Source: Flectobacillus sp. (GTDB taxonomy: Bacteria > Bacteroidota > Bacteroidia > Cytophagales > Spirosomataceae). Taken from it: DNA of 6,326 bases. This document shows positions 771-4,483 of this stretch, piece by piece (the first letter of the stretch is position 1; each line of letters starts with the position of its first letter). Where the stretch lies: NCBI GenBank assembly GCA_029865665.1, contig JARXAV010000231.1:1-6326 (forward strand). Direction: 5' to 3'. The translations under genes and the position numbers were made by a program. Under the pieces are notes generated by a model that was given only the letters and a program-made list of their open reading frames with translations, was not told the DNA's origin and did not search any database.

Positions 771-828
771 GGTGTACATTGTTTAAAAGTTTAAAAAACA
801 GTCCAAAGAATCCATTTGAACCTTGCGG

Positions 829-875
829 AAAAAGCGTTGAGTAAACGTTGATAAACTGGTGCTTACACGCTTATT
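829..875 (-). terminator. Hairpin plus T-run: possible terminator or attenuator before slipin
   Basis: AAGCGT (872-867) pairs perfectly with ACGCTT (837-832). GTAAGC (866-861) continues by pairing with GTTTAC (846-841), including one G-U, after a 3-base bulge (840-838). The apical loop is 14 bases. Five T residues (833-829) overlap and follow the 3' strand. The stem is GC-poor, so termination would probably be partial. It could separate ncRNA levels from slipin expression, or simply be one more arm of the leader. Confidence 0.4.
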
Positions 876-1042: not shown

Positions 1043-1111
1043 CCACTTGAAAGAGTGGTGCTTTAACCAACTTAGCTACATCAATCACTTGATGGCAGGA
1101 CTCGAACCTGC
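1043..1111 (-). ncRNA. Circularly permuted tRNA-like module 2
   Basis: T-arm GCAGG/CCTGC (1111-1107, 1099-1095) is a perfect 5-pair stem with loop TTCGAGT. It is followed by a perfect 6-pair acceptor-like helix CATCAA (1094-1089) with TTGATG (1084-1079), closed by GNRA loop GTGA. Then come T8-A9 (1078-1077), a D-arm GCTA/AAGC (1076-1073, 1063-1060) with three pairs, an A-A mismatch and a GG-containing loop, A26, and a local anticodon-like hairpin CCACT/AGTGG (1058-1054, 1047-1043) with the 6-base loop CTTTCA. Unlike module 1, the anticodon-type arm is closed locally, so the break lies in the variable region. The sequence resembles module 1 in T-arm and D-arm, which suggests tandem duplication. 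Confidence 0.85.
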
Positions 1112-1118
1112 GAATTTT

Positions 1119-1183
1119 CCTGTTGCTCTACCTACTGAGCTACCTCATTGCTGAAGAGAGGAGTCGAACCTCCGACCCACAGA
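1119..1183 (-). ncRNA. Circularly permuted tRNA-like module 1
   Basis: In transcript order: TCTGT (1183-1179) is the 3' strand of an anticodon-like stem; GGGTC (1178-1174) matches tRNA variable positions 44-48; the T-arm GGAGG/CCTCT (1173-1169, 1161-1157) carries loop TTCGACT. Next comes an acceptor-like helix of 5 pairs, CTTCA (1156-1152) with TGAGG (1147-1143), one of them G-U, closed by GNRA loop GCAA. T8-A9 (TA) follows, then D-arm GCTC/GAGC (1140-1137, 1128-1125) with loop AGTAGGTA containing the G18-G19 pair, A26, and ACAGG (1123-1119). ACAGG pairs with TCTGT over all 5 positions (one G-U). This is a full tRNA core opened at the anticodon loop and closed at the acceptor. It has no free 3' end and no CCA, so it cannot be aminoacylated as a tRNA. 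Confidence 0.87.
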
Positions 1184-1260: not shown

Positions 1261-1294
1261 TTGTAAATCAGCCGTACTTGCTTCTTTGATGATA

Positions 1295-1302
1295 CAAAGT
1301 AA
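1295..1302 (-). promoter_or_regulatory. Putative Bacteroidota -7 element for the leader RNA/slipin transcript
   Basis: TTACTTTG on the minus strand matches 7 of 8 positions of the Bacteroidota -7 consensus TAnnTTTG. Transcription from it would begin around 1288-1290, upstream of all the structured elements. No clear -33 TTG is found at the expected distance, which lowers confidence. Confidence 0.35.
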
Positions 1303-1311
1303 ATAAGCTGA

Positions 1312-1330
1312 TACGCAGCCTATTTGCGTA
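1312..1330. promoter_or_regulatory. Perfect dyad TACGCA-N7-TGCGTA, candidate operator
   Basis: Six-base perfect arms (1312-1317 and 1325-1330) are separated by GCCTATT. A second overlapping dyad, GCTG-N5-CAGC, lies at 1307-1319. Both sit in the divergent intergenic region, directly upstream of the putative -7 element of the leader RNA, where a bound regulator would block or recruit polymerase. No regulator gene is in the window. Confidence 0.4.
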
Positions 1331-3673: not shown

Positions 3674-4483
3674 ATGTCTCCAATTAGCCTCATTATTGTC
3701 TGTTGTCTAACTCTGATTATACATTTTATTAGCATTATCAGTTTATCAGCAAGAATCGTTGGAACTCGTACTCAACGAGTAGCGTCGTCAGCTTCCATTT
3801 TCAATATTATCAGCTTAGTTGCTCAATTTTCAAATACCATTCAGGGACCATTACTCGCAAAATCGATTGAGAAAAGTATTACAACTGGACAAGCTCCAGA
3901 CCATTTTATATTTAGAGTAATTATTTTGTCTGCTACGGTTGGATGTACTCTCGGAGGATTCGCTATCCCAAGTATTCACCGATTTATGAAGAGAGGCGTT
4001 GATTCTTTATATTTACACCGCTCTGTATTTAGGGTTTTTATGAGTGCATTACACATAAAGACCTTAACCTACTTTTACGAAAGCATAACTATTCCATCGT
4101 TAAAAAACTTAACTAACCTAAAACGATACCCAGATACGCCATTTGGCTTAATTGCCCTGAATGCCTTTGTTTATAGCTTCACCACCGTTAGTGTACTGGC
4201 TTGTCTATATGCAGGATTTCTTAACCCTAACCTTCGCTCCACAGCTTTATCCATGACAGGGGTAAGCATTGGGCTTGGTTCTATCGGTATGATGCTTTTT
4301 ATAGAGCCTTACAGTGCCACCCTGACCGATAAAGTAATTGATGGGTCTATCACAGAAGGACATTTTAGACGCTACATTACTTTTATTGTGATTGCAAGGA
4401 CTATAGGGACACTTCTAGCTCAGTTCTTAATTATTCCTATGGCAAAATTTATAATATGGTTAGCAGAAGTACTATATGCTTAA
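3674..4483 (+). CDS. amj: Amj-family (DUF2837) lipid II flippase
   Basis: The 269-residue polytopic membrane protein has about six hydrophobic segments (near 4-25, 38-56, 79-101, 157-184, 189-211 and 233-266). The N-terminal block ARIVGTRTQRVASSASIFN (26-44), followed by SNTIQGPLLAKSIE (53-66), is the hallmark of Bacillus subtilis Amj (YdaH), an alternative lipid II flippase that can replace MurJ. Length and topology match that family. Amj moves undecaprenyl-pyrophosphate-linked peptidoglycan precursor from the inner to the outer leaflet. Here it is 13 bases downstream of a glycosyltransferase and follows sugar-modification genes, so it may serve a different undecaprenyl-linked glycan or act as backup for MurJ (inference). 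There is no separate promoter in the short gap. Confidence 0.85.
   Translation: MSPISLIIVCCLTLIIHFISIISLSARIVGTRTQRVASSASIFNIISLVAQFSNTIQGPLLAKSIEKSITTGQAPDHFIFRVIILSATVGCTLGGFAIPSIHRFMKRGVDSLYLHRSVFRVFMSALHIKTLTYFYESITIPSLKNLTNLKRYPDTPFGLIALNAFVYSFTTVSVLACLYAGFLNPNLRSTALSMTGVSIGLGSIGMMLFIEPYSATLTDKVIDGSITEGHFRRYITFIVIARTIGTLLAQFLIIPMAKFIIWLAEVLYA

Follow-up and report, generated by a model that had tools for sequence, protein, structure and literature searches.

Two tandem tRNA-like modules, circularly permuted and with a loop sealing each acceptor stem, were confirmed at positions 1043–1183, on the minus strand, of the 6,326-nucleotide stretch of Flectobacillus sp. DNA analysed here (the window). 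Comparison with related loci makes it near certain that they belong to a family of RNAs, whose mechanism we infer, and the best reading of that family from the sequences is a new tRNA-mimic RNA of RNA-repair operons, close to YrlA in module architecture. As to what such an RNA might do, a role as a bait or sensor for tRNA-cutting nucleases is tentatively favoured over a regulatory leader acting in cis, a protein scaffold, or a tRNA precursor.

In the window, the order of elements in both modules is T-arm, a hairpin that replaces the acceptor, T8-A9, and D-arm. Pairing percentages given for individual helices were all obtained from alignment A1 (39 loci, including the window). Module 1 is enclosed by CTGT (1182–1179, in a 5' closing strand at 1174–1184) and ACAG (1123–1120, in a 3' closing strand at 1119–1124), which form an opened anticodon stem (helix 1; 92.7% of cells paired, five of five pairs changing on both sides). 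Between these strands lie the T-arm GGAGG-TTCGACT-CCTCT (1157–1173; helix 2, 100% paired), the closed acceptor hairpin CTTCA-GCAA-TGAGG (1143–1156; helix 3, 93.1% paired, with six of six pairs changing on both sides), and T8-A9 (TA) with the D-arm (1125–1142; helix 4, 96.2% paired), the latter reading GCTC-AGTAGGTA-GAGC from 1140 to 1125. Module 2 begins with the T-arm GCAGG-TTCGAGT-CCTGC (1095–1111; helix 5, 99.5%) and continues with the closed acceptor hairpin CATCAA-GTGA-TTGATG (1079–1094; helix 6, 92.6%, seven of seven pairs changing on both sides) and T8-A9 (TA) with a D-arm (1060–1078; helix 7, 82.1%) that occupies 1076–1060 and has three D-stem pairs in the window. It is followed by an anticodon-arm-like hairpin, CCACTCTTTCAAGTGG (1043–1058; helix 8, 89.7% paired over the 39 loci), which in the window can be drawn with 5 bp and a 6-nt loop or with 4 bp and an 8-nt loop, an irregular loop in either case; the arm entered for the window's loop type in our survey of second modules is in another register. 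Downstream of both modules, at approximately 265–415 nt, lies the start codon of a slipin (Band_7/SPFH) gene on the minus strand (3–770; Band_7, E 1.2e-19), which is cut by the window edge and for which the second ATG was taken as the start, as in L002.

For comparison, genome contigs were searched with slipin, which gave 118 relatives, and the best 80 of the 118 were retained, many of which, among the matches listed, carry the same modules 5' of slipin. A held-out covariance model (alignment A5, 32 rows, built without the window, its nearest relatives L001 and L002, and four near-duplicates) found the window at 116.3 bits (E 2e-27). Closure of the acceptors was evaluated over the five pairs adjoining the T- and D-arms, without requiring a hairpin, in the 53 of 81 loci that had two recognised T-arm/D-arm pairs (33 unique arm pairs per module). 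The proportion of paired cells was 87.9% for module 1 and 92.1% for module 2, versus shuffle means of 51.5% and 47.8% and a shuffle maximum of 60.6% for both; when perfect stems were counted from the base, at most three pairs were present in seven of 53 first modules and four of 53 second modules. In alignment A1, 93.4% of cells pair, changes on both sides are seen in 35 of the 41 pairs, none of 500 shuffles matched any of five measures, and structures slid along the alignment paired in only 35.5–45.9% of cells; as A1 was selected for stems of at least four pairs in both modules (44 of 53 loci, then 39 after dropping L027, L029, L062, L071, and L073 for their long insertions), its counts favour the fold. 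RNAalifold, unprompted, predicted the same fold from the alignment. The folding energy of the 141 nt alone was uninformative (z = −0.98, with 35 of 200 shuffles folding as well). The tandem permuted arrangement, the closed acceptors, and the retention of the elbow elements (T-loops, D-loops, and T8-A9) proposed in the initial annotation all stand, and the covariation check that it suggested for the acceptor helices came out in their favour.

The same letters can also be read as the decaying tail of a tRNA array, made of ordinary tRNA genes with pairings due to chance. The linear tRNA model of Rfam indeed passes its cut-off in the window (1147–1090, 30.4 bits vs. a gathering score of 29; a second match reaches 25.2 bits) and exceeds the gathering score in L003–L005 as well, and ARAGORN, run on 60 of the 80 loci, reported at least one tRNA in 41 of them (up to 16), including calls within the RNA itself in four (L004, L024, L029, and L060; in L004, it is the sole call). 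In the window, ARAGORN detected no tRNA gene. A linear fold across both modules, in which the 3' strand of module 2 pairs with the 5' strand of module 1, was rejected because its pairing (43.6% of cells) was at the shuffle mean; on A1, the linear helix paired in 47.7% of cells, whereas the closed pairing covaries. Fully paired linear arms were slightly in excess of shuffles (four of 44 unique arms, whereas shuffles averaged 1.2 and reached at most 6). A linear acceptor stem with a free CCA end, the criterion of a functional tRNA gene, was not found for these modules. With the adjacency to slipin also against it, decay of ordinary tRNA genes appears exceedingly improbable.

Model R1, applied to 81 sources, placed a match of 83 bits or more next to slipin in 67, of which 39 had served to build it, and no such match in the remaining 14; R1 scores near 80 are not decisive, as ordinary tandem tRNA pairs reach 80.8 bits. 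The number of modules varies, with three in L004. GNRA closure of the acceptor, which the initial annotation had taken as a defining trait, was rejected as a feature of the family, as GNRA loops occurred in only five of 53 first modules and five of 53 second modules and are thus local to a few loci. The closing loops are mostly of 3–7 nt and mostly lack CCA (among the loops listed), and stems of only 4–6 pairs were counted in 39 first and 22 second modules, out of 53 each.

In 47 of 53 second modules, the D-arm is followed by a five-position arm that has four or more pairs and a 7-nt loop, with U at position 33 in 39 of the 47 and a purine at position 37 in 44. The anticodon triplets of these loops vary widely and include stop anticodons in four of the 47. 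Module 1 usually has no anticodon arm. A further arm, ATGGA-loop-TCCAT, was present downstream in 23 of 67 loci, noticed by eye and then tallied by matching one fixed pattern, with no null; it constitutes a second anticodon-like arm, and in the 20 loci where its loop has 7 nt the flanks are near-constant and the triplet is variable. A total of 196 anticodon-like hairpins was set aside, as the search had also caught T-arms.

These features bear on whether the RNA could be the precursor of a permuted tRNA, in which a ligase would join the ends and RNase P and RNase Z would open the acceptor loop to yield a working tRNA. The order of T-arm, acceptor, D-arm, and anticodon arm would suit such a pathway, as would the ligase encoded at the locus, the CCA found in some closing loops (L043, L057, and L061), and the archaeal permuted gene described with a 1-nt intervening sequence (PMC3978253). 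However, the usual size of the loops and their general lack of CCA, the short acceptor stems, the stop anticodons, and the absence of an anticodon arm from most first modules make it very unlikely, if perhaps less so for the minority with CCA.

The association with slipin was analysed in two samples of genomes. Among 395 Bacteroidota genomes, RNA model matches were obtained in 17 and the slipin protein in 20, with 16 in common (Fisher p of approximately 7e-24), in a sample that includes its own centre (G003, one of the 16), chosen as a carrier of the RNA, and that may, like the other one, contain species that supplied training loci. In all 16 shared genomes, the RNA lies on the same strand as slipin, 254–527 nt upstream, so that the placement upstream of slipin in a Bacteroidota genome recognised from the window alone holds for 16 of the 17 matches; this location, immediately 5' of slipin and in its orientation, is the criterion that we propose for the family. 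The 17th match (82.7 bits) had no slipin in the stretch fetched around it, and its score is comparable to those of tRNA pairs. Inspection by eye showed one or two closed, divergent modules in the four slipin genomes that lacked an RNA match. In the other sample, of 247 genomes including its own centre (G001, likewise chosen as a carrier), six matches above 100 bits, that of G001 included, were all at slipin and two of 73–74 bits were elsewhere; five further matching genomes are common to both samples. These genome searches used stricter filters, with 7–12 scored candidates per genome, and weak matches may be missed. No slipin match was found in phage records.

The modules are part of a larger structured leader of approximately 500 nt before slipin, which may alternatively be an RNA distinct from the slipin transcript: the 511 nt from 1290 to 780 folded better than 100 of 100 shuffles (z = −3.27). 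At its upstream end, a search for sequences upstream of slipin revealed a 19-nt palindrome, TACGCA-N7-TGCGTA (1312–1330, minus strand), that is likely an operator. When 1600 nt upstream of slipin were searched in 81 loci, 21 had a palindrome, 18 of them, including the window, in the TACGCA-N7-TGCGTA form (assigned by eye, with no null), and L031, L043, and L065 in different forms. In L006 (4890–4974) and L008 (3564–3648), an ordinary tRNA-Tyr called by ARAGORN lies directly before slipin, in the place of the RNA, with the same palindrome upstream. Downstream of the palindrome, comparison with relatives pointed to a promoter-like stretch with TTTG (1288–1306, minus strand), and TTTG or TTTTG recurs at a like distance past the palindrome in L001, L002, L003, L023, and other loci; this TTTG is presumably the −7 element of Bacteroidota. 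A sigma-70 scan returned no promoter at 1288–1306.

Two hairpins precede the modules on the minus strand. The first, GGTTTCTATATAGCC (1242–1256), has two of five pairs changing on both sides in 21 sequences; in the second (1205–1240; alignment columns 96–105 with 125–135), seven of nine pairs do so in one or more of the 21. On the 3' side of the modules, the minimum-energy fold contains a long-range helix of 14 pairs with one bulged U, formed by AAAACAGTTCCAAAG (1014–1028) and CTTTGGACTGTTTT (795–808). This helix is supported but not proven, because its free-alignment score in the window (38.0) falls short of the 39.7 that marks the 95th percentile under shuffling; across the family, 25 of 67 loci exceed that percentile (approximately three expected), and an alignment of 12 Flavobacteria showed a corresponding helix with some compensatory changes. 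Next to its 3' strand is the motif TTCCG-N-ATGG (809–833, minus strand), found in 36 of 83 loci, approximately 50–240 nt ahead of the slipin gene, vs. a shuffled expectation of 0.008 per locus, for a pattern defined after inspecting the same loci. The stretch GGGATACCGTA (945–955) occurs in the window and also in L001, L002, and Subdoligranulum L089. Its GATACC was tried as a conserved motif and is not claimed, since its presence in 12 of 83 leaders is only about twice the background (approximately six expected at 0.068 per 300 nt).

Such a structured leader fits regulation in cis as well. According to this explanation, the modules and the 3' region would control the transcription or translation of slipin, for example by responding to tRNA-binding proteins, to modification state, or to the level of uncharged or cleaved tRNA. 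The placement of the RNA before slipin and on its strand in all 16 shared genomes, the conserved 3' region with its motif ahead of the start codon, and the folding of the 511 nt all speak for it, and there is a precedent in the yjdF riboswitch, a tRNA-like fold that acts in cis (PMC9142559). However, the start codon is approximately 260–640 nt away from the modules, many relatives have sealing genes and tRNA arrays that a switch for slipin alone would not need, and the anticodon loops share a format within which the triplets vary. We therefore consider control in cis possible but somewhat unlikely.

The genes around the RNA point to RNA repair. Among 80 fetched stretches, of unequal length and with one representative of each neighbour cluster identified by Pfam, RtcB was found in 55, WYL regulators and TPR proteins in 30 each, RNase H-like proteins in 23, AAA proteins in 14, and PrfH-kind proteins with an RF-1 domain in 11, in addition to RlaP-type nucleotidyltransferases in clusters of nine and six loci. 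From its position and motif, we take the RF-1-domain neighbour to be PrfH. Arrays of up to 16 tRNAs were seen upstream of the RNA, in the orientation of slipin, in L005, L043, L047, L057, and others. The nearest relatives of the window locus, L001 and L002 (Arcicella aurantiaca, 71% slipin identity), encode at the slipin locus (L002:6895-10225) a T4 Rnl1-type ligase, RlaP, and a T4-type Pnkp (kinase-phosphatase), and RtcB was not found in the L002 genome at E up to 1e-10. Compared with the RtcB loci, the sealing systems of L001 and L002 have apparently been swapped; because Rnl1 and Pnkp replace RtcB there, RNA sealing is the constant. In the window itself, no repair gene is seen because slipin runs off its edge. 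Divergent from the RNA, positions 1397–2903 encode a BKACE beta-keto acid cleavage enzyme and, after it, a protein with hexapeptide repeats, and L001 and L002 have a WYL regulator where the window has the BKACE gene. Further along, at 3674–4483, lies a gene for Amj (alternate to MurJ), adjoining an ABC transporter on one side and an unassigned gene on the other.

Overall, the initial annotation was right about the modules and their position, and it lacked the anticodon arm of module 2 and the RNA-repair neighbourhood, as well as the second anticodon-like arm, the variable module number, the 5' and 3' structure of the leader, and the relatives outside Bacteroidota.

In the bait or sensor reading, tRNA-damaging stress would release the operator, and expression of the RNA would accompany that of slipin, of the sealing enzymes, and, in many cases, of spare tRNAs. 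Its modules would retain the elbow and the anticodon arm, the features that tRNA-binding proteins read, but, having no free 3' end, would be neither charged nor used by the ribosome as a tRNA. The RNA could then serve anticodon nucleases as a non-translatable bait, or sense their activity, and if nicked it would present a substrate to the ligase of the same operon. The RNA persists even where the sealing partners are of another type (Pnkp with Rnl1 in place of RtcB). The lack of an anticodon arm in most first modules and the irregular anticodon loop of the window count against a bait or sensor. A variable triplet in a fixed loop format suggests, as far as sequence comparison goes, display to nucleases rather than decoding; repeated recruitment of unrelated tRNAs would look alike, as a variable triplet is equally expected from it. 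It is also conceivable, if on the unlikely side, that the whole RNA of 500–600 nt is a self-repairing fuse, presenting several anticodon arms on elbows with sealed ends, which would be cut, signal, and be resealed. Toxins that cleave tRNA or phage-defence nucleases would then cut the RNA instead of tRNA, or alongside it, the cut ends would be read as a damage signal before the ligase of the same operon resealed them, and the diversity of triplets would reflect changing nucleases.

Outside Bacteroidota, related elements were seen next to slipin in both Clostridia and Proteobacteria. Plasmid records were searched at the protein level, and of the 11 found to encode slipin six were examined, by eye unless a family or model is named. 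In Subdoligranulum L089, a WYL protein, one closed module, slipin, RtcB, and RlaP were present, although R1 gave only 24.8 bits. Citrobacter L090 and E. coli L091 showed a T-arm and a closed hairpin before slipin, and RtcR adjoins slipin in L090 (annotated rtcR) and in L092 (NCBIfam equivalog). An apparent linear tRNA-like tandem pair was observed before slipin in Photobacterium L092 (3174–3311) and in Burkholderia L093 and L094, the anticodon arm in Burkholderia having a very short loop. The closed form may have arisen from such a tandem linear pair, by the 3' acceptor strand of one copy pairing with the 5' strand of the next.

No description of a tRNA-mimic RNA in a slipin leader was found in the open-licence literature, and several known systems share part of its features. 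Permuted tRNA genes of red and green algae and archaea also have the 3' half first and the acceptor ends joined, as described in PMC3978253, and they are processed into tRNAs, whereas the RNA reported here has short loops, mostly without CCA, and some stop anticodons. The yjdF riboswitch, which raises translation, is also a tRNA-like mRNA leader without a free 3' end; it differs in binding azaaromatic compounds and in being unpermuted, and the available part of its description (PMC9142559) does not mention repair genes. A yjdF match from Rfam was not obtained in the window at E up to 1. Among regulatory systems, the Anabaena TrcR regulon places a tRNA operon (trn), rtcB, and a slipin gene under one repressor, and thus resembles our loci in combining spare tRNAs, rtcB, and slipin, relieved by translational stress (PMC10272220); in contrast, the term tRNA-like is absent from the main text of that paper. 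The RtcR-controlled rtcBA and PrfH-RtcB systems share the ligase, regulator, nucleotidyltransferase, and release-factor neighbours, as far as described in PMC7790460 and PMC6514570, and the word slipin is absent from the main texts of both. Damaged tRNA has been described as controlling rtcBA (PMC7790460).

The closest resemblance is to YrlA, whose Salmonella representative has been proposed as a competitive inhibitor of an anticodon nuclease, a parallel to the bait reading, and reported not to be cut by the RecA-dependent nuclease, which counts against that reading (PMC7790460). YrlA, which is modified by DusA and TruB, tethers Rsr to PNPase (PMC8394870), and the RNA studied here could likewise be a scaffold, its elbow binding a nuclease such as PNPase and its other parts tethering a partner, perhaps slipin or a repair enzyme. 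Module 1 has the YrlA layout, the opened anticodon stem included, with a tRNA-like domain made of closed acceptor, T-arm, and D-arm. Y RNAs also have a large stem formed by their paired 5' and 3' ends; here, a stem of 4–5 bp was seen to close module 1 alone. However, the YrlA model (RF02553) scored 34.1 bits in the window, below its gathering score of 69, and 30–44 bits in the window and five of the six loci scanned, the best of the six reaching 43.7 and L006 giving none. Ro60/TROVE, the defining partner of Y RNAs, was found, at E up to 0.001, in one of 12 carrier genomes and not in the other 11, this sample being of unstated completeness and comprising some MAGs as well as L024 and L025, with divergent modules. 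Membership among Y RNAs was rejected on the basis of these scores and of the scarcity of Ro60, so that of the kinship suggested in the initial annotation the YrlA-like layout of the modules stood and the membership did not. With two or three modules present as well, we regard a scaffold function as doubtful, and the bait or sensor reading is retained.

In conclusion, the RNA shares with YrlA the permuted series of T-arm, closed acceptor, and D-arm, the opened anticodon stem, and a location in RNA-repair operons (PMC7790460, PMC8394870). It differs from YrlA in having two or three modules with an anticodon arm after the last one, additional 5' and 3' structure, and slipin in place of rsr. Mimicry of tRNA by closed permuted modules thus occurs here in tandem, mostly without Ro60 and with slipin as a regular partner, and related elements adjoin slipin in other phyla; the family makes testable both the part of slipin in RNA repair and the use of tRNA mimics as a bait or sensor of tRNA damage.
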